The notes below the pieces were generated by a model. The model was given only the letters and a program-made list of their open reading frames with translations, did not search any database and was not told where the DNA came from. From Longimicrobiales bacterium (lineage in GTDB: Bacteria; Gemmatimonadota; Gemmatimonadetes; Longimicrobiales; Gaopeijiaceae): DNA of 64,000 bases. Each line of letters starts with the position of its first letter. Position 1 is the stretch's first letter. Where the stretch lies: positions 1,529,340 to 1,593,339 of the forward strand of contig OX638356.1 in assembly GCA_951813395.1 (NCBI GenBank), written 5' to 3'. The position numbers and the translations under genes were made by a program. Below, piece after piece: positions 28,296-62,864 of the stretch.

Positions 28296-28486
28296 CGCTG
28301 CTACCGGCCCTTCGCCGCGCCTGGCCGGCCCGGCGCCTCGCCGCTCTCCGTGCCCGGGCGGCTTTGTCCACGGACTGCTGGCGGGGCAAGCGGGCGAAAA
28401 CTCCTCGTTTTTGACCTTGCGGAACCGGCCCCCGTGCGGCAGTATCCAGATATAGATACTGCAACCGGGAGGTTATTCTCACTGGC
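28296..28486. other. Intergenic leader before the first DUF1592 gene
   Basis: No gene is seen here. The end of the stretch contains an AT-rich island with an exact inverted repeat at 28439-28462 and a GGGAGG ribosome-binding-like sequence at 28467-28472. A TTGACC hexamer at 28411-28416 lacks a matching -10 at 16-18 bases. Confidence 0.5.
28439..28462. promoter_or_regulatory. Exact 8-bp inverted repeat, operator candidate
   Basis: GCAGTATC (28439-28446) and GATACTGC (28455-28462) are perfect reverse complements separated by the AT-rich spacer CAGATATA. The element stands alone in an AT-rich patch just before GGGAGG and the first DUF1592-DUF1552-ankyrin module, where a repressor or an mRNA hairpin could block expression. 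Confidence 0.5.
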
Positions 28487-28558
28487 CTGACGAGACCTGT
28501 CCCCGTCCTGGTACTGGCGGTCGTACTGGGACTCAGCCTGCCCTCCGGGACCGACTCC

Positions 28559-30946
28559 GTGCACAAGGCGCCGGAGTTGCTCCGGCCGGGGCCGGCCGCT
28601 GTATTGTCCGCTTCCGCCGCTCCCGGTGCTCCCGCTGCGGACATCGTGCAGGACTACTGCGTCCGCTGTCATAACGAACGCCGGCTCATCGGCAACCTCA
28701 ATCTCGAGGCGTTCGATGCTGCGGATCCCGTCGCGAACCGCCCCGTTGCGGAAAAGATGATTCGCAAGCTGCGCGCGGGCATGATGCCGCCGCCGGGGGT
28801 CAGGCGGCCGCCCGAAGACGAGGTCGTGGCGTTCGTGACCGGCATGGAGGAGAGCATCGACGCAGCGGCCGCGCGGAACCCCAACCCGGGGGCCCGCACG
28901 TTCCAGCGCCTCAACCGCGCCGAGTACGAACGCGCCGTCCAGGACCTGCTGGGTCTGGAGATCGATGCGTCCGCGTACCTGCCCGGCGAGACGGTGAGCG
29001 CGGGCTTTGACAACATAGCCGACGTGCAGAACCTCTCCGCAACGCTGCTCGAGGCCTATCTCACCGCGGCGAGCGAGGTGAGCCGCCTCGCCCTGGGCGA
29101 CGCCAACGCGACCCCTGCCGAGGCGACCTACGAAGTGTCGCGATACGCCGAACAGCGCCAGCACGTTCCGGGCGCGCCCTTCGGCACGCGCGGCGGGATC
29201 TCGATCGTCCACAACTTCGTCGCCGACGGCGAGTACTATTTCCGACTGGCGTTTCAGCACGAGTCGACCGGCAATTTCTTCGGCCAGACCGCGCCCTTCG
29301 ACGAGGAGATCGAGGTATCGATCGATGGGGCCCGGGTTGCGCTGATTCCGCTGGACCGCTGGATGCACCGGCAGGATCCGCGCGGTGTCGAGGTCGTGAC
29401 CGATCCAGTCAGGGTTACGGCCGGACCGCACCGCGTGTCGGCCGCGTTCATCAAGGTCACGGAGGGGCCGGTCGAGGACCTGACCTCACCACACGAGTGG
29501 TCGCTGGCGGACAAGAAGATCGGGTACTCCTACGGGATCACCGGGGTTCCCCACCTTCGGGACCTGACCATCGGCGGGCCGTACAACGTGACGGGGGTCT
29601 CGCGCACCGCCGCCTGGCAGCGTGTCATGAGTTGCCTGCCCTCAACGCCCGCCGAGGAGCGAACCTGCGCCCGCGAAATCATCGACAGGCTGGGCACCCG
29701 CGCTTTCCGCCGGCCCGTGACGGAGGCCGAGGCTGACGGCCTCATGGGCCTCTTCGCCGAGGGCGTGGCCGAGGGCGGCTTCGACATCGGGGTCCGGACG
29801 GCGCTCCAGGGCATTCTGGCGAGCCCGGACTTCGTGTTCCGCTTCGAGGAGCCGGCTCCGGGCGGCGTCGATGCCAACGGGATGTATCGTCTTGGCGATG
29901 CCGCGCTGGCGTCGCGCCTGTCCTTCTTCCTGTGGGGACGCCTGCCCGACGAGGAGCTGATCGCGGCCGTGACGGCGGGCGATCTCTCGCGTCCGGAGGT
30001 ATTCGCACACCAGGTGGAGCGCATGCTGCGGGATCCTCGGGCCGAGGCGCTCGGGACCCGGTTCGCATCGCAGTGGCTTCGCCTCCAGGACCTGGACAAG
30101 GTCCACCCCGACGCATTGCGCTTCCCTGACTTCTACCAGCAGCTCGCCGAGGACATGCAGCGCGAGACCGAGATGTTCTTCAGCGCGCTGGTCCGCGAGG
30201 ACGGGACACTCGTCGATGTGCTCACGGCGGACTACTCCTACATGAACGAGCGGTTGGCGCGGCACTACGGAATCCCCGGCATCGCCGGCGAGCACTTCCG
30301 CCGCGTCGAATACCTGAATCCGCAGCGGCGCGGCGTTTTGGGCCACGGCAGCATCCTGACGCTCACTTCGCACGCCAACCGGACCTCGCCCGTGCTCCGG
30401 GGGAAGTGGGTGATGGAGGTGTTGCTGGGCACGCCGCCGCCGCCGCCGCCGCCCGACGTCCCCGAACTGGACGCGACCGCCGATGCGAGCGGCGGACGTT
30501 TCCTTACGGTGCGAGAGCGGCTCGAACAACACCGTGCGAACCCGACGTGCAACTCCTGCCACCGCTTCATCGACCCCATCGGGCTTGCGCTCGAGAACTT
30601 CGATGTCACCGGTGCGTGGCGGGTGCGGGACGCCGGCTCGCCGGTCGAGACACTCGGCGAACTGTATGATGGCACGCCGATCCACGGCCCGGACGATCTG
30701 CGTGCCGCACTGCTGCGGCGCCCGGAGTCCCTGGTCCGCACCTTTGCCGAGAACCTGATGGCCTACGCCCTCGGGCGCAGGATCGAGTACTACGACATGC
30801 CCGCGGTGCGGCGAGTGGCGCGCGCTGCGGCTGCGCAGGACTACCGTCTGTCGGCCTTCATCAAGGAAGTGGCGCAGAGCGATCCCTTCCGCATGGCGAA
30901 GTCCGCTGCCGTCGTCGAGGAGGCGATGGGCGGCGGCCGCAACTGA
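28559..30946 (+). CDS. DUF1592-family cytochrome-c-like protein (module A)
   Basis: A 795-residue protein of the planctomycete-type DUF1587-DUF1595-DUF1592-DUF1588-DUF1585 family. There is a c-type haem motif CVRCH at residues 34-38 and a second CNSCH at 664-668. Conserved blocks include RTFQRLNRAEYERAVQDLLGL (DUF1587), LASRLSFFLWGRLPDEEL (DUF1592), RRGVLGHGSILTLTSH (DUF1588) and IDPIGLALENFDVTGAWR plus FAENLMAYALGRRIEYYD (DUF1585). The GTG at 28559 is the first standard start, but the frame upstream encodes a signal-peptide-like run (PVPVLVLAVVLGLSLPSG), so translation may begin at CTG 28487 or ATT 28475. Function unknown; an exported haem protein is inferred. Confidence 0.9.
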   Translation: MHKAPELLRPGPAAVLSASAAPGAPAADIVQDYCVRCHNERRLIGNLNLEAFDAADPVANRPVAEKMIRKLRAGMMPPPGVRRPPEDEVVAFVTGMEESIDAAAARNPNPGARTFQRLNRAEYERAVQDLLGLEIDASAYLPGETVSAGFDNIADVQNLSATLLEAYLTAASEVSRLALGDANATPAEATYEVSRYAEQRQHVPGAPFGTRGGISIVHNFVADGEYYFRLAFQHESTGNFFGQTAPFDEEIEVSIDGARVALIPLDRWMHRQDPRGVEVVTDPVRVTAGPHRVSAAFIKVTEGPVEDLTSPHEWSLADKKIGYSYGITGVPHLRDLTIGGPYNVTGVSRTAAWQRVMSCLPSTPAEERTCAREIIDRLGTRAFRRPVTEAEADGLMGLFAEGVAEGGFDIGVRTALQGILASPDFVFRFEEPAPGGVDANGMYRLGDAALASRLSFFLWGRLPDEELIAAVTAGDLSRPEVFAHQVERMLRDPRAEALGTRFASQWLRLQDLDKVHPDALRFPDFYQQLAEDMQRETEMFFSALVREDGTLVDVLTADYSYMNERLARHYGIPGIAGEHFRRVEYLNPQRRGVLGHGSILTLTSHANRTSPVLRGKWVMEVLLGTPPPPPPPDVPELDATADASGGRFLTVRERLEQHRANPTCNSCHRFIDPIGLALENFDVTGAWRVRDAGSPVETLGELYDGTPIHGPDDLRAALLRRPESLVRTFAENLMAYALGRRIEYYDMPAVRRVARAAAAQDYRLSAFIKEVAQSDPFRMAKSAAVVEEAMGGGRN

Positions 30947-30960
30947 GGAGAGCGAACAGC

Positions 30961-32343
30961 ATGGAATACATCACGGGAGCAGCGATCCCCCGCCGTACCT
31001 TTCTGAGGGGTGTGGGGGCCACGATCTCGCTGCCGTTCCTCGACGCCATGATACCCGCAGGACGTGCGCTGGGAACCGCCGCGGACGGCCCGACGCGGCT
31101 CGTGGCGATCGAGATGGTCCACGGGGCGGCGGGGAGCAACGAATGGGGCCGCGCGCAGAACTACTGGTCTCCCGCGCAGACGGGCAGGGACTTCGACCTG
31201 ACCCCCAGCGCGCTGAGTCCGCTCGAGCCCTACCGCAAATACCTTACGATCGTCAGCGACACCGACATCGAGCCCGCCGAGGCAAAGAAGCCGAAGGAAA
31301 TCGGGGGCGATCACTTCCGCTCCAGCGCCACGTTCCTCACACAATCGCACCCGCGCCAGACCGAGGGCTCCGACATCTTCGTCGGCAAATCCCTCGACCA
31401 GATGTTCGCGCAGCGCTTCGGCCAGGACACGCCGATCCCGTCCATGCAGCTCTGTATCGAGAATGTGGACCAATCGGGCGGGTGCGCCTACGGCTACGCG
31501 TGCGTCTACACCGACACCATAAGCTGGGCGTCGCCCACCGATCCGCTTCCGATGGTGAGAGATCCACGGGTCGCCTTCGACCAACTCTTCGGGGTCGGAG
31601 GCAGTCCCGGGGAGCGGGCGGCGCGCCGCCGGACCAACAAGAGCATCCTCGACTTCATCACGGGCAGGGTGTCGCACCTCAAGCGTACGCTGGGGCCGGC
31701 GGATCTGGTTCGCCTCGACCGCTACCTGGATCATGTGCGCGAGCTGGAGCGCCGAATCCAGCGCGTGGAGGCGCAGAACACGAGCGGCGAGAGCCGGGAG
31801 TTGCCGGAAGCTCCGGCCGGTGTGCCCGACGACTTCGAGGAGCACGTCAAGTTGATGTTCGACCTGCAGGCGCTGGCCTTCGCGTCGGATGTGACACGGG
31901 TGTTCTCCTTCAAGATGGGACGCGATTCGTCCGCGCGGGTCTTCCCGGACAGCGGCGTCGACAGACCCTTCCATCCGGCATCGCACCACGGGGGCAACGA
32001 GGACAACATCACCGACTTTTCGAAGATCAACCGTTACCACATCGGCATGCTCCCGTACTTCCTGGAGCGGTTGGAGGACACGATGGAGGGGGATGCGCAC
32101 CTCCTCGACCGGACGATGATTGTCTACGGGTCCCCGATGGGAGACCCCAACATCCACAACCACAAACGCTGTCCGCTCTTCGTTGCCGGCGGGGCCAACG
32201 GGCAACTGGAAGGCAACCTCCACCTGCGCGCGGCTCCCGGCACGCCGATGGCCAACGTCATGCTGAGCCTGGCGCACAAGCTCGGGCTGGACGACACGAA
32301 GCGCTTCGGCAACAGTACGGGCGACTTTTCGCTGACGGTGTAG
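30961..32343 (+). CDS. DUF1552 protein with RR-type export signal (module A)
   Basis: A 460-residue DUF1552 protein. The N-terminus has a twin-arginine-type motif (PRRTFLRG) followed by a hydrophobic run (VGATISLPFLDAM). Conserved features include IEMVHGAAGSNEWG, IGGDHFRSSATFLTQSHP, CAYGYACVYTDTISW, SHHGG, INRYH and GSPMGDPNIHNHKRCPLF. Histidine-rich blocks of this kind suggest a metal site (inference). DUF1552 genes commonly follow DUF1592 genes; here the gap is 14 bases. The family is related to DUF1501 proteins, whose function is also unknown. Confidence 0.92.
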   Translation: MEYITGAAIPRRTFLRGVGATISLPFLDAMIPAGRALGTAADGPTRLVAIEMVHGAAGSNEWGRAQNYWSPAQTGRDFDLTPSALSPLEPYRKYLTIVSDTDIEPAEAKKPKEIGGDHFRSSATFLTQSHPRQTEGSDIFVGKSLDQMFAQRFGQDTPIPSMQLCIENVDQSGGCAYGYACVYTDTISWASPTDPLPMVRDPRVAFDQLFGVGGSPGERAARRRTNKSILDFITGRVSHLKRTLGPADLVRLDRYLDHVRELERRIQRVEAQNTSGESRELPEAPAGVPDDFEEHVKLMFDLQALAFASDVTRVFSFKMGRDSSARVFPDSGVDRPFHPASHHGGNEDNITDFSKINRYHIGMLPYFLERLEDTMEGDAHLLDRTMIVYGSPMGDPNIHNHKRCPLFVAGGANGQLEGNLHLRAAPGTPMANVMLSLAHKLGLDDTKRFGNSTGDFSLTV

Positions 32344-32347
32344 GCGC

Positions 32348-34168
32348 ATGACGATCCGCGTGAACGCCTGGCTTCCGTTGCTGCTTCTGGCAGCCCTGGC
32401 ACCGTGGGTGTCCGGCGGCGGTGCCCAGGACAACCGGTTCCGGGGCCAGCCAGCGCCGGCATTGAACACGCCGTCCGAATCGCCCGTCGCCGATGCGGCC
32501 ATGCGCGGCGATGCCGATGCCGTTCGGGACCTTCTGGCGGAAGGGGCCGATGTGAACGCCGCGCAGGGAGACGGGATGACCGCGCTCCACTGGTCGGCGC
32601 GCCAGGGGGATCCGTCGCTGGTCGGCACGCTGCTCGACGCCGGGGCCGACGTGCACTCGGGGACGCGCATCGGGCACTACACGGCGCTCCACATGGCGGG
32701 CGAGGTCGGTGCGGGCGAGGTCGTCGAGTTGCTGCTGGACGCGGGCGCCGACCCCATGGCGCGGGTCTCCGTGGCCGGGCATCCGACGGCGCTCCATTTT
32801 GCGGCCGCGTCGGGCAGTGCCCGAGCCGTGGAGGCGCTTCTGGGCGCGGGCGCCGACGTGAACGCCAGAGAGGAGTCCTGGGGGCAGACGCCACTGATGT
32901 TCGCCGCGTCGAAGGGGCGGACGGAAGCGGTGCGGTCACTCCTGGCGGCGGGGGCGGATGCGTCGATACACAGCCAGGTGATGGACGTCGTTGCCCGGGC
33001 GGTTGCGGACCGGATCGAGCGCGCCGAGCGCAACAGGCGCGTCGCCTCGGGTGAACCGTGGGGACCCGAGGTTGCCGAGGCGGTACGCCGCGATCAGGAG
33101 CAGGAATCTCGCCGGGAACGGGCCGAGGCGGCTTCGCTGGAAGAGTCCGAGACGCGCATGATCGAGGAGCCGGAACCGCTGTCCTACGGTGAGCTCGTCG
33201 GCGGACACGGCGGCCTCACCGCGCTTCTGCACGCTGCCCGGGAGGGCCACGCGGAGACCGCGTTCGCGCTCCTGGACGGCGGTGCCGACATCGATCGGAC
33301 AAGCGCCGGCGACGGAACCGGTCCCATGCTCATGGCGGCGATCAACGGACACTACGATCTGGCCATCCGCCTGCTGGAGCGCGGCGCGGATCCCAATCTT
33401 GCAAGCCACGCGGGGGCCACACCTCTGTTTGCCGCGCTCAACACGCACTGGGCGCCCAAATCGCGCTACCCGCAGCAGCACATCTACATGCAGCAGGACC
33501 ACACCTATCTGGAGGTGATGCGGAAGTTGCTGGACGCGGGCGCGGACCCGAACGCTCGGCTCGCCAAGCACCTCTGGTTCATGTCCTACAATTTCGACCT
33601 GCTCCAGATCGATGCGAAGGGTGCGACACCGTTCTGGCGCGCGGCCTACGCCCTCGACGTGGAAGCCATGAAGTTGCTCGTGGCCCACGGTGCCGATCCC
33701 TCGATTGCGACGGAAAAGGTTCCGTCGAGGCGCTACGGCCGCGGCGGAGACGATGCGCCCGATGCGTCCGGGTTGCCGCCCGTGCCCGTCGGCGGTCCCG
33801 CGGTTTACCCCATTCACGCGGCCGCGGGAGTCGGATACGGCCAGGGCTTCGCGGGCAACGCCCACCGTCATGTGCCCGACGCCTGGGTGCCGGCCGTCCG
33901 CTACCTGGTCGAGGAACTCGGGGCTGACGTGAACGCGCGCGATCACGAGGGATACAGCCCGCTCCACCATGCCGCCGCGCGTGGCGACAACGAGCTGATC
34001 CTGTACCTGGTGGAGCAGGGGGCGGACGTCACCTATGTCAGCAGGCGGGGGCAGACGACGGTGGATATGGCCAACGGCCCGGTGCAGCGGATCCAGCCGT
34101 TCCCGGAGACCATCGCTCTGCTGGAGAGTCTCGGCGCGGTGAACAACCACAACTGCGTTTCCTGTTGA
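32348..34168 (+). CDS. Secreted ankyrin-repeat protein (module A)
   Basis: A 606-residue protein with a signal peptide (VNAWLPLLLLAALAPWVSGGGAQ), about four N-terminal ankyrin repeats (GDGMTALHWSARQGDPSLVGTLLDAGADV and following), a charged coiled segment around residues 215-270, then more repeats and a conserved insert (GLPPVPVGGPAVYPIHAAAG). The last residues are NNHNCVSC, a motif shared with the module B protein. It begins four bases after the DUF1552 stop, so it is part of the same transcript. Ankyrin repeats bind proteins; the partner is unknown, with the neighbouring DUF1592 or DUF1552 proteins as obvious candidates. Confidence 0.93.
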   Translation: MTIRVNAWLPLLLLAALAPWVSGGGAQDNRFRGQPAPALNTPSESPVADAAMRGDADAVRDLLAEGADVNAAQGDGMTALHWSARQGDPSLVGTLLDAGADVHSGTRIGHYTALHMAGEVGAGEVVELLLDAGADPMARVSVAGHPTALHFAAASGSARAVEALLGAGADVNAREESWGQTPLMFAASKGRTEAVRSLLAAGADASIHSQVMDVVARAVADRIERAERNRRVASGEPWGPEVAEAVRRDQEQESRRERAEAASLEESETRMIEEPEPLSYGELVGGHGGLTALLHAAREGHAETAFALLDGGADIDRTSAGDGTGPMLMAAINGHYDLAIRLLERGADPNLASHAGATPLFAALNTHWAPKSRYPQQHIYMQQDHTYLEVMRKLLDAGADPNARLAKHLWFMSYNFDLLQIDAKGATPFWRAAYALDVEAMKLLVAHGADPSIATEKVPSRRYGRGGDDAPDASGLPPVPVGGPAVYPIHAAAGVGYGQGFAGNAHRHVPDAWVPAVRYLVEELGADVNARDHEGYSPLHHAAARGDNELILYLVEQGADVTYVSRRGQTTVDMANGPVQRIQPFPETIALLESLGAVNNHNCVSC

Positions 34169-34175
34169 AGCGGCC

Positions 34176-36716
34176 ATGCTGAAGCAAGCGGCCCCCGCAG
34201 CGGCCGGCATCTTGCTCGTCGGCCTCGGGATGTCGCTCGCGTCCGCGCCCGACCGCGGAGTCGCGGAATCCCCGGTTGCCTGGCGGCCGGCCCAACCTGC
34301 CTCCGAGACAGCCGGGCCGACCGACGGCGGACTCCGCGCCGACAACGAAGTCATCCGGCAGTACTGCGTCCGCTGTCACAACGACCGCCGCCTGCTGGGC
34401 AACATGTCGCTGGAGCCGTTCGACGCGACCGACGCGCCCGCCAACGGCGAACTCGCCGAAAAGATGATCCGCAAGCTGCGGGCAGGTCTGATGCCCCCGC
34501 CCGGGAATCGGCGCCCCGAAGAACCCGTTTTGATGGGCCTGATCGAATCGCTGGAGTCCCAGATGGACCGCGCGGCGGCGGACAACCCCAATCCCGGCCG
34601 GCGCACCTTCCAGCGCCTCAACCGGGCGGAATACGAGGCCTCGATCCGAGACCTTCTCGACCTGGAGATCGACGCGGGCACCTACCTTCCGCTCGACACC
34701 AAGAGTGCCAACTTCGACAACATCGCGGATGCGCAGCTCCTCTCCGCAACGCTGACGGACGGCTACCTGCGGGCGGCCGCCGAGATCAGCCGGCTGGCGA
34801 TCGGCGACCCCCACATCACCCCCAGCGAGTCGACCTATCGCGTCTCGCGGTGGGACTCGCAGAGCGAGCGGGTGGAAGGCGCACCGTACGGCACCCGGGG
34901 CGGGGTGTCGGCCCTGCACAACTTCCCCGCGGACGGCCACTACGCCTTCCGCGTGTCCTTCCACCACGAGACGACCGGCGCTCTCGTGGGCAACGGGCGC
35001 AATGCGCTCCACACCCGCGAGGGCGAGCCGGAACTCCTGGACATCTCGATCGACGGTGTGTCGGTCGCGGTCCTGGAAGTGAACCGGTGGATGCACACCT
35101 CGGATCCGGATGGCGTGAACATCCGTTCCGAGCGCGTTTTCGTGCGCGCGGGCCCGCGTCAGGTGTCCGCGGCGTTCATCCGGCGCTCCGAAGGCCCGCT
35201 CCAGGACCTCATCTCGCCGCACGACTGGTCGCTGGCGAGCACCAGCATCGCGGGGAGCTACGGCTTCACCGTGCTTCCGCACCTGCGGGACCTGGCGATC
35301 GGCGGCCCGTACGAGCCCGAGGGCGTGTCCGACACGCCGAGCCGCGCGGCGGTGTTCACGTGCCGGCCGGAGCCCGGGACCGAAGCGGGGGCGACCGAGG
35401 CCGCGGCGAGAGGCTGCGCGCGCGGGATCGTCGCCCGTCTGGGCACCCGCGCGTACCGGCGCCCATTGACCGAGGCGAACATGGCCGCGCTGATGCGGCT
35501 CTACGATGCCGGCGCGGCGCTCGAGGGCTTCGAGGGCGGGGTGCGCATGGCACTGGAGGGGATCCTCGCCAGCCCGCACTTCATCTTCCGCATCGAGGAG
35601 CCGACGGCGGCGCATGGGCAGGCCGGCGGGGCGGACGCGGGGCCGGCGGGAACCTACCGCATCGGCGACCACGATCTGGCCTCGCGGCTCTCCTTCTTCC
35701 TGTGGGGATCCGGGCCCGACGACGAACTGATGGCGGTGGCGCGCGAGGGCGGGCTGTCGGAACGGACCGTGCTGGAGCGCCAGGTCCGCCGCATGCTGCG
35801 CGACCCGCGTTCCACGGCGCTCTCGACGCGCTTCGCCGGACAGTGGCTGCGGCTGCAGGACCTGGAGAAGATCCAGCCCGACGTGCGCGTCAACCCCGAT
35901 TTCGACGAGCCCCTCAAGCGCGCGATGCTGAAGGAGACCGAGCTCTTCTTCGACAACCTGGTCCGCGAAGACGCCTCGGTCATGGACCTCTACAGCGCCG
36001 ACTACACGTTCGTGAACGCGCGGCTGGCCCGCCACTACGGCATTCCCGATGTGGCCGGCGACCGCTTCCGGCGCGTCCGCTACCTGAACGACGAGCGGCG
36101 GGGCCTGCTGGGCCACGGCAGCGTCCTCACGCTGACCTCGCACGCAGGCCGAACATCGCCCGTGCTCAGGGGCAAGTGGGTGATGGAAGTGTTCCTGGGG
36201 ACGCCGCCCCCACCTCCACCCCCCGACGTGCCCGAGCTGGAGGAGGAAGCGGTGGAGGACGGCCGTTTCCTGACGGTGCGGGAGCGGCTCGAGATGCACC
36301 GGGCCAACCCGACCTGCAACTCCTGCCACCGCATGATCGACCCCATCGGCCTGGCGCTCGAGAACTTCGACGTTACCGGCGCGTGGCGCATCAGGGATCA
36401 GGGCGTTGAGATCGACGCGGCCAGCGACTTCTACGACGGCACGCCCATCTCGACGCCCTCGGAGCTGCGCACGGCGCTGCTGAAGCGGCCCGAACCGCTG
36501 CTGCGCACGTTCACCGAGAACCTCATGGCATATGCGCTCGGACGCCGCCTGGAGTATTATGACATGCCGGCCGTGCGCCGGATCACCCGGGCGGCGGCCG
36601 AAGAGGACTACCGGGTATCCGCGTTCATCGTCGGGGTGGCGACCAGCGACGCCTTCCTCCTGAAGGCCGCGCCCACGGTCGTCGACGACGAAGCGCCGAA
36701 CGGAAACGGAGGCTGA
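34176..36716 (+). CDS. DUF1592-family cytochrome-c-like protein (module B)
   Basis: An 846-residue paralogue of the module A protein with a normal ATG and signal peptide (AAAGILLVGLGMSLASA). Haem motifs are CVRCH at residues 64-68 and CNSCH at 714-718. Domain order is the same, with FQRLNRAEYEASIRDLLDLEID, DLASRLSFFLWGSGPDDEL, RRGLLGHGSVLTLTSHAGRTSPVLRGKWVMEVFLG and NLMAYALGRRLEYYDMPAVRRI. It starts seven bases after the module A ankyrin gene, so modules A and B may form one transcript. Likely exported; function unknown. Confidence 0.92.
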   Translation: MLKQAAPAAAGILLVGLGMSLASAPDRGVAESPVAWRPAQPASETAGPTDGGLRADNEVIRQYCVRCHNDRRLLGNMSLEPFDATDAPANGELAEKMIRKLRAGLMPPPGNRRPEEPVLMGLIESLESQMDRAAADNPNPGRRTFQRLNRAEYEASIRDLLDLEIDAGTYLPLDTKSANFDNIADAQLLSATLTDGYLRAAAEISRLAIGDPHITPSESTYRVSRWDSQSERVEGAPYGTRGGVSALHNFPADGHYAFRVSFHHETTGALVGNGRNALHTREGEPELLDISIDGVSVAVLEVNRWMHTSDPDGVNIRSERVFVRAGPRQVSAAFIRRSEGPLQDLISPHDWSLASTSIAGSYGFTVLPHLRDLAIGGPYEPEGVSDTPSRAAVFTCRPEPGTEAGATEAAARGCARGIVARLGTRAYRRPLTEANMAALMRLYDAGAALEGFEGGVRMALEGILASPHFIFRIEEPTAAHGQAGGADAGPAGTYRIGDHDLASRLSFFLWGSGPDDELMAVAREGGLSERTVLERQVRRMLRDPRSTALSTRFAGQWLRLQDLEKIQPDVRVNPDFDEPLKRAMLKETELFFDNLVREDASVMDLYSADYTFVNARLARHYGIPDVAGDRFRRVRYLNDERRGLLGHGSVLTLTSHAGRTSPVLRGKWVMEVFLGTPPPPPPPDVPELEEEAVEDGRFLTVRERLEMHRANPTCNSCHRMIDPIGLALENFDVTGAWRIRDQGVEIDAASDFYDGTPISTPSELRTALLKRPEPLLRTFTENLMAYALGRRLEYYDMPAVRRITRAAAEEDYRVSAFIVGVATSDAFLLKAAPTVVDDEAPNGNGG

Positions 36717-36721
36717 CCAGG

Positions 36722-38116: not shown

Positions 38117-38126
38117 GGAGGACGGC

Positions 38127-40070: not shown

Positions 40071-40114
40071 CCGCCCACAGAGGAAAGCGCCCGTTTGCCC
40101 CCCCAGGAGGACCT

Positions 40115-43488: not shown

Positions 43489-43517
43489 GCCAATGATTCC
43501 GCAGGCCTGTTCACGTA

Positions 43518-43535
43518 TGTAATGTCAACATTACA
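43518..43535. promoter_or_regulatory. 18-bp palindrome, strong operator candidate
   Basis: TGTAATGT-CA-ACATTACA has exact 8-base arms around a 2-base centre and sits in an AT-rich pocket in the middle of G+C-rich DNA, 105-88 bases before the ATG of the alpha/beta hydrolase gene. This is the typical size and symmetry of a dimeric repressor site. The regulator is not identified. Confidence 0.6.
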
Positions 43536-43622
43536 AGAAGTCATGTTTAGTTTCCATTGTTGCTTTCTGAAGCTTCCCGGCGCTCGGGGCGGCTTTGGTC
43601 AACGGACTGCCCGGAGGCCGTG

Positions 43623-45683: not shown

Positions 45684-45988
45684 ACCGCGGGGTTGGGCAC
45701 CCTGCGCTCCGACGGCTGAAATCGAGGACTCTTACCGGTAGCAGTGGTTCGCCGGCGCCGGTGGTGCACCCCGATCGCTGACCCCGCCGCGCTCGCCCGT
45801 TTTCTTCCTTTTCCGCGGCGCCTTGAGTCGCCTCAATCGCTCAAAACCTTGCGTGAACACGAATTGTGTCCCATATCGGAATACAAGATAAAATACAATC
45901 GCGTTCAGGCCTTCTGTTCGCGTGGACGGAAGATGTACTCGCGTGCGCGATCGCGTGCGCACGACTTTGTCGTATCCGGGAGTAGAAA
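45684..45988. other. 305-bp AT-enriched control region before the SusC gene
   Basis: No gene is seen. The right half is AT-rich, unlike its surroundings. TTGTGT at 45864-45869 and TAAAAT at 45889-45894 are 19 bases apart and could be a promoter for the susC-susD operon (weak). Further down, GCGTGCGC occurs twice at 45941-45960 around GATC; the centre GCGATCGC is a palindrome. Confidence 0.45.
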
Positions 45989-48976: not shown

Positions 48977-49055
48977 CGAATGAGAGGGAGCCATGCACAG
49001 CCCGTTTCATCCATCAACGGAGTGTTCATCCACCAACGAACCAAGGGAAAGAGCC

Positions 49056-50252: not shown

Positions 50253-50286
50253 CAGTCCGTGGGCAGGGCCCGCGGGTCGCGCACCG

Positions 50287-51840: not shown

Positions 51841-51871
51841 GGAGGACCACGAGCTCAGGGGACATTCGGGG

Positions 51872-53290: not shown

Positions 53291-53501
53291 GGAAGCGTGA
53301 CTCCCTCCTGGTGCGACAAAGCGCTTGCGAGGCTGAGAACGGTAGCGTTCCGACGGCCGGGACGCTCCCGGGAAACGGAGGTCTCCCGAACGGGGGTGTC
53401 AACCTCCAGGGTGACTTGTGCCTGTGGGACCGGCAGTCTACTGTTCGTGTGTAACACGGTTGTATACAATTTCGGATTTATGGTGCGAGATGGGGGGCAG
53501 A
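53291..53501. other. Divergent control region with two small palindromes
   Basis: No gene is seen between the methyltransferase (minus) and the third DUF1592 gene (plus). Near the right end are CGTGT-GTA-ACACG (53446-53458) and TTGTATACAA, a 10-base palindrome at 53460-53469 that also resembles a -10 box. They are adjacent in an AT-rich island and may be operator or promoter elements. Confidence 0.4.
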
Positions 53502-56240
53502 ATGGCGCTGAATAGGCCGCAGAAAAGAGGCCTGTCGTTGTCGCGCCGGTCCTGTTTGGCTATGGGCCGCAGCCTACTCCCTGGAGAGTGGACGGTGGGG
53601 TTGGCGGCTGCCGGGCTGGTTCTCCTCTCGTGTTCGACACTCGAGTCACCCTCGACGACCGCCGAAATGGGGCCAGCGCGAGAGGCCGGCATCCAGATTG
53701 CGCAGGCCCGGGACGCGCACGCCGGTCCCATCGCCACAGGAGCCGAAGCGCAGGCGATGGTCGAACAGTACTGTGTGCGTTGTCACAACGATGTTCGCCG
53801 TACGGCGCTCCTTGAACTGGACCAGTACGACGCCACGAACCCGGCCACCCACCCCGAGATCTGGGAGAAGGTGGCCACCAAGTTGCGTGCGGGGGCCATG
53901 CCGCCGGGAGGTGTGCGTCGTCCCGATGAAGAGACCTACGACGCGGTGGCCGGCTGGCTCGAATCGGAGTTGGACGCCGCTTGGGCGAAAAACCCGAACG
54001 TCGGTCGCATCAACGCGGTGCACCGGCTCAACCGTACCGAGTACAACAACGCCGTGAACGACCTGCTTGGGCTGGACGTTGATGTCATTGACGCGTTGCC
54101 CGGCGACGAGACGATGGGCGGCGGATTCGACAATGTGGCCGATGCCCTGAGCATCTCGCCGCTCCACATGGAGCGTTACCTGTCGGTCGCCCGGACGGTC
54201 ACCCGACTGGCGGTCGGACTGCCGCCGGCGGGGGCGGGTTCGTCTCGCTACGTTGCGGACGACGCGAGACGCCAGAACGTCCGGATGAGTGACGATTTGC
54301 CCCTGGGCTCCCGTGGAGGCATGGCCATCCGCCATATCTTCCCGGTGGACGGCGAGTACCGGATCCGGGTACGTCTTCAGAAGAACTATGCGGGCTACGC
54401 TCGCGGGCTCGGATGGGAGCAGGAACTCGACGTCCGGATCGACGGAGAATTGGTGGACAGGCTCGTCTTCGGCGGCGAGGGCCGGCAACATCGGCCGGTG
54501 GCCAACAGCTACGCGGGAGCCGGCGGGGGCCCCGGCTGGCCGGGATCTCCCGAGTGGGAGAACTACGCCAAATTCGGTGCCGAAGCCCCTCTGGTGACGA
54601 CCGTGCAAGTCGAGGCTGGAAGCCGGGTCGTCGGCCTCTCGTTCACCAAGGATCTCGCCTACGGGGAGGAGTACCTGCTTCCGCAGGCCCCAGTCCAGAC
54701 GAGGAGCCAGATCGACTACTTCAACAACGAGTACTTCGGCATGTCGGGCGTGATCGGGATGGAGATCGACGGCCCATTCGGCGAGACCGACGTCGCCGAT
54801 AACACGCGGAGCAGGGAGGAGATCTTTGTCTGCGAGCCGCAGTCCGTCTCCGGCGAGGAAGGCTGCGCCACGGAGATCCTGACGCGAATGGCACGGCGCG
54901 CCTACCGCCGGCCTGTCACCCATGACGATATGGAGATCCTGCTCCGCTTCTTCCGCATGGGTCGGGATGAGGGAGGGAGCTTCGACCACGGTATCCAGTT
55001 GGCACTGGAGCGGCTCCTCATCGACCCGGACTTCCTCCTGCGTGTCTATCGCGAGCCGCGCGTGCGCGCACCGGATCAGGCGCCGGAGTTTGCCGAGGGC
55101 GCCCCCTATGCGCTGAGCGATCTGGAGATAGCGTCACGGCTGTCTTTCTTCCTCTGGAGCACCGTCCCCGACGAGGCCCTGCTCAGGCAAGCCGAGCAAG
55201 GTCGGCTTGCCGATCCCACGGTGCGGAGCGAGCAAGCCCGGCGAATGCTGGAAGGCTCCCGGGCCCGCGAGACTCTCGTGGAGGACTTCGCCAGCCAGTG
55301 GCTGAAGCTCCGCGAACTGGACGACCGGCTTCTCCAGGACGACATCTACATCGAGTACGGCCACAACCTCCGCGAGGCCATGGAAGAGGAGACCAAGCTC
55401 TTCTTCGAGTACGGCATTCGTGAGGACAGGAGCGTGGTCGAACTCCTCGACGCCGACTATACCTTTGTCAACGAGCGACTTGCCGACCACTACAACCTCC
55501 CCGGCGTGGCCGGGAGCCACTTCCGCCGGGTCCAGCTTCCCGACCTCGAGAAAAGGGGCGGTCTGCTGGGGCACGCCAGCATCCTCACGGTGACGTCCTA
55601 TCCGGAGCGGACCACGCCGGTGCTTCGGGGCAAATGGATCCTCGAGACAATCCTGGGTCGGCATGTGCCGCCGCCCCCGCCCGACCTCGACACGAGCCTT
55701 GAGATCCCTGAGGACCAGGGGACGGTGCGGAAACCCACGATCCGGGAGCGGCTCGCAAAGCATCGCACGGAGCCGACCTGCGCCAGCTGCCACCGGACGA
55801 TCGATCCGCTGGGTTTCTCCCTTGAGGCCTATGACGCCGCGGGGGGTCTTCGGCTGATCGACGAACTCGGAAATCCCGTGGACGACACCGGCCTGTGGCC
55901 CGAGACCGAACAGGAGATCCAGGGATTGGCGGGTCTCCGGAATCTGATATTGGAGAACAAGGAGCAGTTCGTTCGAACCGTGACGACAAAGCTCATGCAA
56001 TACGCCCTCGGGCGCGATGTCGAGTACTATGATCAACCGACAATCCGGAAGATCATTCGCGATGCAGAGGCAGACAATTACGCCTGGTCGTCGATCATTC
56101 TGGGGATTGTGGAGAGCCCACAGTTCCTCATGCGGATGCGTGCGGTAGCGACCCCGACAGCGGAGCAGTCAGCGTTCTCGCGCATGGAGGCTGGACGCAT
56201 GGAGCCTGGAGAGGACAACAATGGACTTTATCACTGGTAG
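53502..56240 (+). CDS. DUF1592-family cytochrome-c-like lipoprotein (module C)
   Basis: A 912-residue protein from ATG 53502; ATG 53490 and 53562 are alternatives. A lipobox-like LLSC (Cys44) ends the signal. Haem motifs are CVRCH at 91-95 and CASCH at 760-764. Domain blocks follow the family: HRLNRTEYNNAVNDLLGLDVD, EIASRLSFFLWSTVPDEAL, RGGLLGHASILTVTSYPERTTPVLRGKW, LMQYALGRDVEYYDQPT. It has a longer middle section than modules A and B, including a glycine-rich stretch (YAGAGGGPGWPGSP). It is the first gene of a tightly packed operon, with DUF1552 overlapping by 20 bases. Confidence 0.92.
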   Translation: MALNRPQKRGLSLSRRSCLAMGRSLLPGEWTVGLAAAGLVLLSCSTLESPSTTAEMGPAREAGIQIAQARDAHAGPIATGAEAQAMVEQYCVRCHNDVRRTALLELDQYDATNPATHPEIWEKVATKLRAGAMPPGGVRRPDEETYDAVAGWLESELDAAWAKNPNVGRINAVHRLNRTEYNNAVNDLLGLDVDVIDALPGDETMGGGFDNVADALSISPLHMERYLSVARTVTRLAVGLPPAGAGSSRYVADDARRQNVRMSDDLPLGSRGGMAIRHIFPVDGEYRIRVRLQKNYAGYARGLGWEQELDVRIDGELVDRLVFGGEGRQHRPVANSYAGAGGGPGWPGSPEWENYAKFGAEAPLVTTVQVEAGSRVVGLSFTKDLAYGEEYLLPQAPVQTRSQIDYFNNEYFGMSGVIGMEIDGPFGETDVADNTRSREEIFVCEPQSVSGEEGCATEILTRMARRAYRRPVTHDDMEILLRFFRMGRDEGGSFDHGIQLALERLLIDPDFLLRVYREPRVRAPDQAPEFAEGAPYALSDLEIASRLSFFLWSTVPDEALLRQAEQGRLADPTVRSEQARRMLEGSRARETLVEDFASQWLKLRELDDRLLQDDIYIEYGHNLREAMEEETKLFFEYGIREDRSVVELLDADYTFVNERLADHYNLPGVAGSHFRRVQLPDLEKRGGLLGHASILTVTSYPERTTPVLRGKWILETILGRHVPPPPPDLDTSLEIPEDQGTVRKPTIRERLAKHRTEPTCASCHRTIDPLGFSLEAYDAAGGLRLIDELGNPVDDTGLWPETEQEIQGLAGLRNLILENKEQFVRTVTTKLMQYALGRDVEYYDQPTIRKIIRDAEADNYAWSSIILGIVESPQFLMRMRAVATPTAEQSAFSRMEAGRMEPGEDNNGLYHW

Positions 56241-57579
56241 GCACATCTCGCGGCGCACTGTCCTTCGGGGCGCTGGCGCGGCGCTGATGCTGCCATTCCT
56301 GGAAGCGATGACGCCAGCCCGTTTGACTGCGGGCAGCGGCCCCAGGCGCAAGTCTCCTCACAGATTCCTGGCGTACTACACGCCGAACGGTCAGGCCATG
56401 CCGCACTGGACGCCGACTGGCGAGGGCCGTGACTTCGCGCTCTCCGACATCCTGGGTCCGCTGGAGCCGTTCAGGGAGAGGATCATCATCCCGTCGGGGC
56501 TGAGCGCGTCGTGGAACTTCAACCACGCCGGTGGGCCCACCAGCTTTCTCACCGGCATGGTGGGGAGGTCGCTGGGCGACGCAGAGGCGGTGGACAACAC
56601 CGACATCATCGCGGCGGAGTCGATCGATCAGATGCTGGCGCGTGCGTGGGGGACGGAGACGCAGCTGGGCTCGCTGGAGCTTTCCCTGGACGGTCCGCCG
56701 AACGCCGGCACCTGTGCCATCCTGAACTGCGCCTACACGCATACCATCTCCTGGCGGAGCCCCACGCAGCCTCTCCCGATGGAAAACCATCCGCGAACGG
56801 TCTTCGAGCGGCTCTTCGGGGACACGGGGACGACTGAGCGTGAACCGCGGGAGCGGCGCCTGCAACAACAGAAGAGCCTGCTGGACTCCGTGACCGACAA
56901 GCTGCGGGCGCTGAGGCGCGAGCTGGGCCCGCAGGACCAGCGCAACGTGGAGCAGTACACCGAAGCGGTGCGAGACGTGGAACGGCGGATCCAGGTGGCC
57001 GAGCAGCAACTGGACGTCGATCTGCCGAACATGGAGCAGCCGCAGGGGATTCCGGAGACTCTGGAGGATCATCTGGAGCTGCTGCTGGACATGCAGATCC
57101 TGGCCTATCAGGCGGACATCACAAGGGTGTCGACGATGATGATCGGGCGCGAAGTGAACGCACGGCCGTATCCGCAAATCGGTGTTCCGGAAGCGTGGCA
57201 TCCGCTGTCGCACCACGGCAACCGTCCAGACATCGTCAAGTATGTGTCGAAGATCAATCGGTATCATGTGGAGCTCTTCACCCGTCACCTCACGAAGCTG
57301 AGTCAGACTCCCGACGGCGACGGTTCGCTGCTGGATTCGATCACCGGGCTGTACGGGTCGGGGATCTCCAACAGCCAGCGCCACGCAGGCGACAATATTC
57401 CGCTGGTCATCGTGGGTGGTGGCAACGGCAAACTGAACGGTGGGCAGCACATCCGGTACGAGGGCGGACCGACGCACGCGAACCTGTTGGCGACCCTCAT
57501 GGACAAGATGGACATGCCGATGGACAAGATCGGCGGCAGCACAGGCCGGCTACCGATCGACACCCTCGGCGAGCTCTGA
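56221..57579 (+). CDS. DUF1552 protein with RR-type export signal (module C)
   Basis: A 452-residue DUF1552 protein with the signal SRRTVLRGAGAALMLPFLEAM. It is clearly diverged from the A and B copies: CAILNCAYTHTISWRSPTQPLPM replaces the A/B version, the GGDHFRSSATFLTQSHP block becomes NHAGGPTSFLTGM, and the HNHKRCPLF region reads QRHAGDNIPLVIVGGGNG. The histidine SHHGN block is retained. It overlaps the DUF1592 stop by 20 bases, so the two are translationally coupled. Function unknown. Confidence 0.92.
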   Translation: MDFITGRHISRRTVLRGAGAALMLPFLEAMTPARLTAGSGPRRKSPHRFLAYYTPNGQAMPHWTPTGEGRDFALSDILGPLEPFRERIIIPSGLSASWNFNHAGGPTSFLTGMVGRSLGDAEAVDNTDIIAAESIDQMLARAWGTETQLGSLELSLDGPPNAGTCAILNCAYTHTISWRSPTQPLPMENHPRTVFERLFGDTGTTEREPRERRLQQQKSLLDSVTDKLRALRRELGPQDQRNVEQYTEAVRDVERRIQVAEQQLDVDLPNMEQPQGIPETLEDHLELLLDMQILAYQADITRVSTMMIGREVNARPYPQIGVPEAWHPLSHHGNRPDIVKYVSKINRYHVELFTRHLTKLSQTPDGDGSLLDSITGLYGSGISNSQRHAGDNIPLVIVGGGNGKLNGGQHIRYEGGPTHANLLATLMDKMDMPMDKIGGSTGRLPIDTLGEL

Positions 57580-57596
57580 TACACTGCGCCCGCACG

Positions 57597-57854
57597 ATGC
57601 CCATCTTCGAGTTTCGTTGCCAGCAGTGTGATGAGCAGTTCGAGTCCCTCGTGCTGCACTCGTCCGCCCCGGCCCGATGTCCTGCCTGTGACAGCAACCA
57701 CCTGGAGAAGCTCATCTCCCTTCCCGTAGTGAGTTCCGACCACACCAGAAAGCGCGCACGACAGAGCGCCCGGGCGCACGCGAGTGGCATCCGTCACGAG
57801 AAGCAGCACGAGGATCACAAGGAACTTCACGGGCATCTGGCGGAAGACCATTGA
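57597..57854 (+). CDS. FmdB-family zinc-ribbon protein
   Basis: An 85-residue protein. The N-terminus MPIFEFRCQQCDEQFE and then CPACDSN give two CxxC pairs, the FmdB/putative regulatory zinc-ribbon pattern. The second half is basic and histidine-rich (HTRKRARQSARAH, HEKQHEDHKELHGH). It has no export signal, so a small cytoplasmic protein sits inside an operon whose other products look exported. The stop overlaps the TTG start of the next gene (TTGA). Role unknown. Confidence 0.85.
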   Translation: MPIFEFRCQQCDEQFESLVLHSSAPARCPACDSNHLEKLISLPVVSSDHTRKRARQSARAHASGIRHEKQHEDHKELHGHLAEDH

Positions 57855-58801
57855 AGACGTCGACGTGGTTTGCGCCAGGCATCCTTGGCATCGCGGCGGG
57901 GCTGGCATGCCAGGCTGCCCCGGCCGGCGACCACGCGGACGAGCCGACCGTGAGCTACGAGCTTGTGGAGGACTGGGCCGGCACCCCCGAGGACGTGGGC
58001 ACCGTTTCGGCGGTCGATGTCGATGCCGAGGGCAACGTCTATGCATTCCGCCGGGATGCCAACGACGTGTGGCGGCTCGATGCCGAGGGCAACGTGCTGG
58101 ACGAGTGGGACCAGGATTTCGCCCAATGGGCCCATGGGATCCGTGTGGGGCCGGACGAGGCCATCTGGACCGTCGACGGACAGGGCCACCAGGTCAAGAA
58201 GTGGAGCCACGACGGTCGCGAACTCCTCATGACCCTGGGCGAGTACGGGGTAGCTGGAGTGACGCCCACCACCTTCGATCGACCCACGGACGTGGCCTTC
58301 GGTCCCGACGGGGAGTTCTTCGTCTCCGACGGCTACGGGAACAACCGTGTGGTCAAGTACGACCGGAATGGCGAGTTCGTCGCGGCGTGGGGTGAACCCG
58401 GCACCGAGCCGGGACAGTTCGACCTTCCCCACACAATCGTCGTCGACTCCCGTAGCCGCGTGCTTGTCGGGGACCGCGAGAACGCCCGCATCCAGATCTT
58501 CGACCTGGACGGGAACCTCCTCGAGGTGTGGGACCATCTGGGCTCACCGTACGGCCTCTCCATCGACGACAACGACCAGCTCTACGTGGCCGACCTGGTC
58601 AACGCCAGAATCTGGATCGCCCGGGCCAGCGACGGCGAGCTGCTGGGAACCATCGAGGACACGAAGGCCATCCACTGGATCGCGGTGGACGGGCAGGGCG
58701 ACGTCTACGCCGCGACGCCGGCACCGGCCACGGGCCAATTCTGGGACGATCCCTCCGAGATCTGGTATCTGAGGAAGTACCGGAAGGTGGCGGGCAATTG
58801 A
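57851..58801 (+). CDS. NHL-repeat beta-propeller lipoprotein (module C)
   Basis: A 316-residue protein with a TTG start at 57851 that overlaps the zinc-ribbon stop. The signal ends in lipobox GLAC (Cys20). NHL-type blades are repeated: TFDRPTDVAFGPDGEFFVSDGYGNNRVVKYDRNGEFV, FDLPHTIVVDSRSRVLVGDRENARIQIFDLDG, and SPYGLSIDDNDQLYVADLVNARIW. The family includes peptidylglycine alpha-amidating-lyase-like propellers, but no activity can be assigned. The next gene starts at its stop (TTGA). Confidence 0.85.
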   Translation: MKTSTWFAPGILGIAAGLACQAAPAGDHADEPTVSYELVEDWAGTPEDVGTVSAVDVDAEGNVYAFRRDANDVWRLDAEGNVLDEWDQDFAQWAHGIRVGPDEAIWTVDGQGHQVKKWSHDGRELLMTLGEYGVAGVTPTTFDRPTDVAFGPDGEFFVSDGYGNNRVVKYDRNGEFVAAWGEPGTEPGQFDLPHTIVVDSRSRVLVGDRENARIQIFDLDGNLLEVWDHLGSPYGLSIDDNDQLYVADLVNARIWIARASDGELLGTIEDTKAIHWIAVDGQGDVYAATPAPATGQFWDDPSEIWYLRKYRKVAGN

Positions 58802-59454
58802 GCAGGCGACCCCATCCGATGTTGATGGCCATGGCCGCGGCGGGTGTCCTGACCGCGTCGGCTGGCGCCCAGGAGGAAGCTCACGCCCACATTCTGAGGG
58901 TAGTGAATCCCGAGGCCACGGCGGTGGAGGAGCTGGGCTTCCTCAGACAGGCTGTAGGCGAAGCGGGCACCGCGGCAGAGTACGCATCTTTTGCCGCCGG
59001 TGGCCAGGAGCGACCCGGTGACCTCTGGGCAATGAAGACCCACGCGCGGAACATCCTCCACGCTCTGGATCCCACGCGGGTGGAGAACGGCCCGGGCCTG
59101 GGGTTTGGGCTATTCGAGGCTGCCCGGAAAACCATCGAGCACCTCGAGATGGCGGCCGATGCTTCCGACGCAACGGACAACGTCCGGACCCACGCGAGGC
59201 ACGTGGTGAATTGTGTTCACAACACCCTTGAGCGTGCCCACAGGATGCTGGGGATCGTCGAGCAAATCCTGGCCACGGAGTCGGCCGAGGAAGCGGACCA
59301 ACTTTCCGATCGGCTCAACACACTGGGCTTCCAGCTTAGAAACGGTGTAGACGCCAACGGCGACGGGAGGGTCACGTGGCACGAGGGAGAGTGTGGCCTG
59401 TACATTGCCCAGGAACACATGCAGCTGCTGATGAGGGGAGAAGGAATCGGATGA
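58798..59454 (+). CDS. Secreted helical protein of unknown function (module C)
   Basis: A 218-residue protein with a TTG start at 58798 overlapping the upstream stop, and a signal peptide (LMAMAAAGVLTASAGAQ). The mature part is mainly helical with many conserved-looking histidines (KTHARNILHALD, NVRTHARHVVNCVHNTLERAH) and an EF-hand-like loop DANGDGRVTWHEGE near the C-terminus that may bind calcium. I do not recognise the family. The regular histidines could also coordinate metal or haem (inference). It is coupled to the ankyrin gene by an ATGA overlap. Confidence 0.75.
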   Translation: MSRRPHPMLMAMAAAGVLTASAGAQEEAHAHILRVVNPEATAVEELGFLRQAVGEAGTAAEYASFAAGGQERPGDLWAMKTHARNILHALDPTRVENGPGLGFGLFEAARKTIEHLEMAADASDATDNVRTHARHVVNCVHNTLERAHRMLGIVEQILATESAEEADQLSDRLNTLGFQLRNGVDANGDGRVTWHEGECGLYIAQEHMQLLMRGEGIG

Positions 59455-60977
59455 AGGCGATCTGGAGGGCGATGCTGCCCGGTGTGCTCGTAGCCTTTCT
59501 CGCGGCGGCGGTAGCTGATCCGCCTCCGATCGTGGACGCCGCCAGGAATGGCGATGAGGCGGCGTTGCGCTCTCTGGTGGAGCAGGGGGCGAACGTGAAC
59601 GCCACGGCTGGCGATGGCTCGACGGCGCTCCTGTGGGCGAGCCACCGGGACCTGCCGGAAAGCGTGGATCTACTGGTCCGAGCTGGGGCCCAGGTAAACC
59701 GGGCGAACGACCTCGGTGCCACGCCTCTGTGGGCGGCGAGCGAAAACGGCAGTGTGGCGGTGGTGGAACTGCTGCTGGACGCGGATGCGGATCCGAACCT
59801 CGCACTACGCCACGGCGAGACGCCCCTCATGGCCGCCGCACGATCTGGCGGTGCGCGGGCGGCGGAGCTGCTTCTGGAGCATGGAGCGGATCCAAACGCG
59901 ACCGGTCCACGGGGCCAGACCGCGCTCATGTGGGCGGTGCTCGACCTCTCGTCGGACGTGGTGAAGGTGCTGGTCGACCACGGGGCGGACGTGCATGCCC
60001 GGACGGCGGCAACAATGGAGTTGAAGGCGCACGAACCCCACACCCACATCCAGAACCAGGGTTGGTTCGAGCACGGTGGCAACACCGCCCTGATGTTCGC
60101 TGCCAGGGTCGGCGACGCGGAATCGGCAAGGCATCTCGTGGCCGCCGGCGCCGACGTAAACGACAAGTCGGCTTTCGGCGTCAGCGCGCTGGCCATGACG
60201 GCCTACTCCAACTTCCGCACTTTGGTGGCCGAGCCGGCCTACTCTTCGGGTGGCCCGTATACGATGGGTGCGAGGGAGGGCTTCCGTCCCGGCCAGTTCG
60301 GCGAAGTCGTGGAGTTCCTCCTGGAGGCTGGTGCGGACCCGAACGGGGGATCCGACAAGTTCACGGCACTCCACGCAGCGATTCTGCGCCATGACCAGCG
60401 CTCGGTGGACCTGCTTCTGCAGCACGGCGCCGACGTCACTATCCCGCTCGCAACCTTCACGCCGCACCAGCGCGGCTCAAACCAGGCTTTCTACTTTCAC
60501 AACGGCTGGATCGGCGCCCGTCCGGTGTGGCTCGCCGCCCGCTTCGGGACGGCTGGAATCCTGCGCAGTCTGCTCGAACACGGCGCCGACCCGCGTTTCG
60601 TGCACCGCAGCGAGTACTTCAACGGTGTCGACGGCGCCCTGACTTCGGGAATCTTCGCAGCACGACAGCTGGAGCTCACTACGACGCTCATGGCAGCCCT
60701 CGGCATGAGCAATGCCGGAAGGCCGTGGGTCTATCAGCACGTATGCACGCCGGAGCACGAGCAGGCGACGCTCGATAAGGTGCGGTTGCTTGTGGACGCA
60801 GGCGCCGACCTCGCCATGGAGACCGCCGACGGCTTCACGGCGCTCGACCAGGCCAGGGCGTTGCAGTACGAGTCGGTCGTCGAAGTTCTGCTCGCTGCCG
60901 GGGCGCCCGGAGGAGTAGGTCTGGACGAGGCGGAGTACGACTTCCTGAACCGGCGGACGCAGGGAGGCTGCGGGTAG
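59451..60977 (+). CDS. Secreted ankyrin-repeat protein (module C)
   Basis: A 508-residue protein with a signal peptide (MLPGVLVAFLAAAVA) and about eight ankyrin repeats beginning IVDAARNGDEAALRSLVEQGANVNA. It shares the family layout of modules A and B but has its own insert (TPHQRGSNQAFYFHNGWIGARPVWLAARFG) and ends RRTQGGCG in place of the NNHxCVSC tail. The start at 59451 overlaps the stop of the preceding gene (ATGA). It is the last gene of module C, 36 bases before the convergent ggt gene. Binding partner unknown. Confidence 0.92.
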   Translation: MKAIWRAMLPGVLVAFLAAAVADPPPIVDAARNGDEAALRSLVEQGANVNATAGDGSTALLWASHRDLPESVDLLVRAGAQVNRANDLGATPLWAASENGSVAVVELLLDADADPNLALRHGETPLMAAARSGGARAAELLLEHGADPNATGPRGQTALMWAVLDLSSDVVKVLVDHGADVHARTAATMELKAHEPHTHIQNQGWFEHGGNTALMFAARVGDAESARHLVAAGADVNDKSAFGVSALAMTAYSNFRTLVAEPAYSSGGPYTMGAREGFRPGQFGEVVEFLLEAGADPNGGSDKFTALHAAILRHDQRSVDLLLQHGADVTIPLATFTPHQRGSNQAFYFHNGWIGARPVWLAARFGTAGILRSLLEHGADPRFVHRSEYFNGVDGALTSGIFAARQLELTTTLMAALGMSNAGRPWVYQHVCTPEHEQATLDKVRLLVDAGADLAMETADGFTALDQARALQYESVVEVLLAAGAPGGVGLDEAEYDFLNRRTQGGCG

Positions 60978-62693: not shown

Positions 62694-62864
62694 GGACGGC
62701 ACTCCTTGCGGGATTGAATGGCGACGCGCAGGCTGGTCATCCGGTTCGATCCGGAGACCCGCGCCCATCTGCCACCGTCAGAGACCACACGGTCCAACGT
62801 AGGGTGCGGTGGAGCGGGTTGGAAAGCAGCGATTACCCCCGGAGGCCCTGGCCGAGAGAGCTCG

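Follow-up and report, generated by a model that had tools for sequence, protein, structure and literature searches.

The window, a stretch of 64,000 nucleotides from a Longimicrobiales bacterium, encodes the same three types of protein three times: a DUF1592 protein, a DUF1552 protein and an exported ankyrin protein. Does the ankyrin gene belong with the other two, and what might three such proteins do together? DUF1592 and DUF1552 are large families in Planctomycetes, Verrucomicrobia, Acidobacteria and Gemmatimonadota, and we know of no function for either of them.

Gene content of the three modules

Pfam searches confirmed all nine genes of the three modules described in the first-pass annotation, the coordinates of which were correct to within the choice of start codon (Table 1). 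In every module the DUF1592 protein had the domain order PSD3-PSD5-PSD4-PSCyt3-PSD2 above the Pfam cut-offs and carried two CxxCH haem motifs, the DUF1552 protein matched HXXSHH (PF07586) and the third gene encoded a multi-repeat ankyrin. Modules 1 and 2 are arranged head to tail and tightly packed at 28.5–40.1 kb, and module 3 lies at 53.5–61.0 kb, where the genes for an NHL β-propeller protein and a 211-aa protein separate the DUF1552 gene from the ankyrin gene. The products of modules 1 and 2 shared 60–75 % identity, those of module 3 only 38–41 %.

Table 1. Positions of the module genes and neighbouring genes in the window
Feature	Position	Strand	Evidence and remarks
Module 1 DUF1592, two-haem protein	28475..30946	+	Pfam; two CxxCH; signal peptide upstream of first GTG (28559)
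Module 1 DUF1552 (HXXSHH)	30961..32343	+	Pfam, structure model, fold searches; Tat-type RR signal; predicted alkaline-phosphatase-superfamily fold
Module 1 exported ankyrin, class A	32348..34168	+	Pfam; terminal NNHNCVSC-stop
Module 2 DUF1592, two-haem protein	34176..36716	+	Pfam, model; residues 213–382 modelled as CBM-like β-sandwich
Module 2 DUF1552	36722..38116	+	Pfam
Module 2 exported ankyrin, class A	38127..40070	+	Pfam; terminal NNHRCVSC-stop
Module 3 DUF1592, two-haem, class B	53490..56240	+	Pfam; probable lipoprotein signal (LLSC)
Module 3 DUF1552, class B	56221..57579	+	Pfam; 39 % identical to module 1 DUF1552
NHL β-propeller protein, inserted in module 3	57851..58801	+	
211-aa exported protein without a known family, module 3 insertion	58819..59454	+	
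Module 3 exported ankyrin, class B, without terminal CxxC	59451..60977	+	Pfam
Fourth ankyrin gene, without an evident signal peptide	62718..63680	+	Same place in sister species

The signal peptide of the module 1 DUF1592 protein is coded in an open frame that runs from about 28475, after the sequence GGGAGG. Since no ATG, GTG or TTG precedes the signal-peptide codons (none was found upstream of 28559 in the interval 28420–28560), the start appears to be a non-standard codon or an altered base. The module 3 DUF1592 gene probably starts near 53490 and its product looks like a lipoprotein, with LLSC as the lipobox. The 211-aa gene has a counterpart in a sister species (L115:3204–3896). The fourth ankyrin, apparently cytoplasmic, adjoins module 3 in several sister species too, and its tie to the module is uncertain.

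Linkage of the ankyrin gene to DUF1592–DUF1552 pairs

The source genome (4.09 Mb, one contig) contains seven DUF1592 (DUF1588/1592), seven DUF1552 and eight ankyrin genes. An ankyrin gene was adjacent to all seven DUF1592–DUF1552 pairs, four of which are far outside the window (L008–L011), and the gene that follows module 3 (62718–63680) was the sole ankyrin gene beyond these seven. Chance linkage is excluded, because every pair adjoins an ankyrin gene although the genome has just eight of them.

Close relatives of DUF1552 were found at 79 loci, labelled as Gemmatimonadota, Acidobacteria, Gammaproteobacteria and others, some of the MAG labels being doubtful. The named genomes supplied 102 close DUF1552 genes, of which 98 had an ankyrin gene downstream on the same strand and 98 had DUF1592 upstream; three of the four without a downstream ankyrin gene lay at contig ends and the fourth (L037) had a second module next to it. 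As these 102 genes had been picked by similarity to the query, wider tests were run.

Scores of the DUF1552 proteins against a class-A profile split into three separate groups. Class A (139 genes) formed one clade (100/99) with the order cytochrome–DUF1552–ankyrin and an ankyrin carrying a terminal CxxC; at two loci labelled as gammaproteobacterial (L025, L026) the DUF1592 gene was last, not first. Class B (41 genes, including module 3) had its ankyrin downstream, upstream or divergently oriented, and none of these ankyrins had the CxxC. Class C (six genes) had no ankyrin, and the plasmid pairs of Sphingobium and Planctomyces were also ankyrin-free.

Over all loci fetched, an ankyrin gene accompanied 136/139 class-A DUF1552 genes, the remaining three being at contig ends, and 32/41 class-B genes, a sample that is not unbiased, several loci without a nearby ankyrin in the Vicinamibacterales genome G301 having been fetched on purpose. 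With 98 of 99 class-A DUF1552 genes away from contig ends adjoining one, the ankyrin is a genuine third member of the class-A module. The first-pass annotation had described it as a fixed third member; this held for nearly all of class A, but not universally, since class-C pairs lack it.

In 298 Gemmatimonadota genomes, DUF1552 was present in 112, the C-terminal domain of the class-A ankyrin in 111 and both in 110 (Fisher P about 1e-78). The copy numbers of the two correlated at 0.93 and were equal in 62 of the 83 genomes with complete counts. A comparison with chance expectation, which the first-pass annotation had named as a possible refutation of a shared system, was made in G301 (Vicinamibacterales, Acidobacteriota), a single chromosome with about 40 DUF1552, 39 DUF1592 and about 38 ankyrin genes: an ankyrin gene was found within 9 kb of 33 of the 39 DUF1592 genes, compared with 4.0 expected and a maximum of 10 in 5000 circular shifts. 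Triads occupy about 3 % of this Vicinamibacterales chromosome, so that what they do probably matters for the way of life of these soil and marine bacteria. The distances of the three protein families correlated at 0.82–0.84, exceeding every within-genome shuffle. A complete class-B triad was also present on a sequenced plasmid of the soil strain Novosphingobium sp. KACC 22771 (L201:7383–12605). The triad thus recurs in Gemmatimonadota and at least two other phyla, and about thirty times in one genome.

A crude test found a hydrophobic export segment in 122/127 class-A and 27/27 class-B ankyrins. It is established that the three proteins are exported, linked, co-inherited and matched in copy number, and that the three genes form one system acting outside the cytoplasm is strongly supported; their repeated joint encoding across phyla makes one shared function there almost certain.

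The three copies had been attributed to a local triplication. The DUF1552 tree and the synteny of sister species ruled this out: the tandem copies are not sisters, module 1 grouping with a gene from a different genus in the family and module 2 with its sister-species orthologues, and module 3 falls across the deep split between classes A and B. Sister species (L111–L115) have the tandem pair and module 3 in synteny, together with the fourth ankyrin gene. The three modules are ancient, separately conserved paralogues, two of class A and one of class B, and the block in the window is old.

A gene resembling HpcH/HpaI aldolases (sub-threshold Pfam match), the product of which is apparently exported, was frequent beside Gemmatimonadota triads (25 loci, e.g. 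L122:5036–6088). NHL β-propeller genes were found beside triads at 17 of the loci compared (e.g. L011:13281–14435 and 57851–58801 in the window), and possibly encode an optional accessory protein.

Predicted structures and conserved motifs

Two CxxCH motifs were present in 118/122 class-A and 38/38 class-B DUF1592 proteins. In the aligned proteins both motifs and M106, within an MPP motif, were invariant, and this methionine probably serves the first haem as an axial ligand. The DUF1592 model (pLDDT 87, pTM 0.88) was mostly helical with an inserted β-sandwich, residues 213–382, that resembled CBM36/35/6 (CBM36 match Z 9.0 over 105 residues, rmsd 2.7). The CBM-like match is moderate, and a Z of 9 does not imply sugar binding. 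Outside this domain the model had no clear match in the PDB, the long helical part having been searched only within the larger model.

The DUF1552 model (pLDDT 79, pTM 0.85) adopted the fold of the alkaline phosphatase/sulfatase superfamily (best Foldseek E 4e-5), and its comparison with choline sulfatase by VIA gave Z 16.3 over 256 aligned residues (rmsd 3.8). Searches by sequence found no solved structural relative for DUF1552 or DUF1592. The predicted fold, with Z about 16, likens DUF1552 to the S1 sulfatases and NPP phosphodiesterases of this superfamily, from which it differs in its identity of about 10 %, in the absence of the sulfatase formylglycine signature CxPxR (0/186 DUF1552 proteins) and in a conserved site of its own, HxxSHH, which was found in 139/139 class-A and 38/41 class-B proteins. 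Catalysis by DUF1552 is uncertain because the formylglycine signature is absent.

The C-terminal third of the ankyrin was highly conserved. In the close-relative set, 86 of 89 complete ankyrins ended in a CxxC, either as the last four residues or a few positions earlier, with LGAxNNHxCVSC as the surrounding sequence, and 64/125 aligned class-A ankyrins had no other cysteines. One subclade of three ankyrins had CLHTHFLDTGDxC instead, and therefore kept two cysteines at a new spacing with histidines between them. The CxxC is not generally needed for haem attachment, because class-B ankyrins lack it and are nevertheless paired with DUF1592 proteins that retain both haem motifs.

Related systems and possible functions

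Verrucomicrobia have PSCyt genes with an unnamed neighbour, which are abundant in PVC bacteria and for which a possible carbohydrate role has been considered; an ankyrin is not mentioned in the main text of that paper (PMC5615132). The PSCyt3/DUF1592 genes of Verrucomicrobia and Planctomycetes resemble those described here in having the same Pfam domains in a two-haem protein, many copies per genome and no known function, and a plasmid of Planctomyces sp. SH-PL62 carries the same adjacent DUF1592–DUF1552 pair, annotated as such. Unlike the modules in the window, the pairs inspected in Planctomyces, Sphingobium and class C have no ankyrin partner.

Another likeness is to the AnkB-type systems, AnkB-KatB of Pseudomonas, AnkB-CatB of Xanthomonas and Cj1386-KatA of Campylobacter, where the haem enzyme depends on the ankyrin for its full activity or for haem loading (PMC10294975). 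There, as here, an ankyrin protein (periplasmic in Pseudomonas) is tied to a haem protein, the gene for the exported ankyrin lying beside that for the haem protein in the modules; the partner in those systems is a catalase, whereas here it is the two-haem c-type DUF1592 protein. To our knowledge no AnkB-type system includes a third gene like DUF1552.

The DUF1592–DUF1552 pair is already known. Within the open literature, to which the search was confined, we found no account of the triad, its ankyrin member, the CxxC tail or the classes; two papers mentioned DUF1552, and none covered both DUF1552 and DUF1592. With a third protein that co-occurs nearly perfectly, the cysteine pair, the predicted folds and the plasmid triad, what was a gap in annotation becomes a system of three components that can be tested.

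The best overall explanation, which we put forward tentatively, is an exported three-part redox/hydrolase system, with the ankyrin serving the haem protein as its dedicated partner. The two-haem c-type DUF1592 protein would take or pass electrons and bind a substrate that may be a glycan or a glycoconjugate; DUF1552, exported folded via Tat, would act on the same substrate by hydrolysis or transfer through its own HxxSHH site, or might alternatively be a metal-bound subunit. The ankyrin would scaffold the complex or aid its assembly, as periplasmic AnkB does for catalase, and the tail cysteines of class A could serve in redox or disulphide chemistry or in handing over metal or haem. The physical complex, the substrate, catalysis and the role of the cysteines are what we infer here. 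The redox or hydrolytic role guessed at in the first-pass annotation fits the predicted structures, and the modelled phosphatase fold and CBM-like domain suggest that the substrate is a glycan or glycoconjugate. A dedicated haem-protein partner is the most economical role for the ankyrin because there are periplasmic ankyrins that promote the activity of an adjacent catalase (PMC10294975). The core activity may not need the ankyrin, since class-C pairs lack one.

It is possible, if rather unlikely, that the ankyrin is instead a maturation chaperone outside the working enzyme, the CxxC of which keeps the CxxCH of the apo-cytochrome reduced or hands over haem, in the manner of a module-specific CcmH or of the haem-trafficking ankyrin Cj1386. 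The matched copy number, the joint inheritance with each DUF1592 paralogue, the catalase precedents and the tail CxxC as the sole cysteines of 64/125 aligned class-A ankyrins would all suit such a chaperone. Class-B ankyrins are without the CxxC, yet two CxxCH motifs occur in each of the 38 DUF1592 proteins paired with them; moreover, class C combines haem motifs with no ankyrin, and one subclade has replaced the CxxC with CLHTHFLDTGDxC.

A mainly hydrolytic system, in which DUF1552 is the enzyme and attacks surface or environmental polymers as a phosphatase, phosphodiesterase or sulfatase, DUF1592 and the ankyrin hold substrate and enzyme together and the haems are structural or sensing, seems unlikely. 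The fold of DUF1552, the CBM-like domain of DUF1592 and the location of Verrucomicrobia PSCyt genes, with CBM domains, near sulfatases (PMC5615132) speak for it; the formylglycine signature is absent, however, module 3 does not conserve the Glu that follows the first strand, at what is probably the first metal-ligand position, and the Sphingobium pairs adjoin cytochrome b561 and dehydrogenase genes.

That the ankyrin is a linked passenger, captured once beside the pair and kept by co-transcription with no joint function, is very improbable: genes packed this tightly are inherited together, and that alone is enough for correlated trees, but the several arrangements (downstream, upstream and divergent) in several phyla, the co-occurrence in 110/112 genomes over a divergent phylum and the strongly conserved ankyrin tail argue otherwise.

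The exported three-part system can be extended to a widespread exported redox machine, in which the two-haem protein would bind the substrate, the enzyme would have the phosphatase fold and the ankyrin would be a scaffold, its CxxC tail a mobile arm for redox reactions or for handing over metal or haem. Expanded to about 30 copies in Vicinamibacteria, it would attack many different substrates, as the expanded SusCD systems do in Bacteroidetes; we regard this extension as doubtful.

The genomic surroundings did not confirm a carbohydrate role, because SusC/SusD and PQQ dehydrogenase genes were not clearly enriched. Of the 18 SusD genes in the source genome one lies within 10 kb of module 3, the only module with such a neighbour, and a Sus-type polysaccharide utilization locus was rejected, there being no clear SusC/SusD enrichment beside the modules. 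Linkage to PQQ dehydrogenases was likewise rejected in G301 (10/39 DUF1592 genes compared with 7.4 expected, P 0.2), a genome with at least 75 PQQ-type dehydrogenase genes, unlinked to the triads. Among the PADLOC models of anti-phage defence systems, the ankyrin repeats alone matched ankyrin-containing models, and DUF1592 and DUF1552 had no match. NCBIfam ankyrin matches to Legionella effectors and MzaA were discounted, being far below the cut-off and limited to the repeats, and matches in phage records were to other ankyrins only.

Ankyrin-free DUF1592–DUF1552 pairs were found in Sphingobium herbicidovorans pMSHV (L202:10373–15356) and in Sphingobium sp. TomTYG65 (L204:10343–15338), the latter annotated as hypothetical proteins. 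Their farther neighbours resemble genes of steroid or aromatic catabolism, and a link to steroid degradation, weighed from the neighbouring genes, was not established. A TonB receptor gene and an AraC regulator gene lie upstream of the pairs, and cytochrome b561 and SDR genes follow them, with a cytochrome c gene in addition on pMSHV; these cytochrome genes are consistent with electron transfer.
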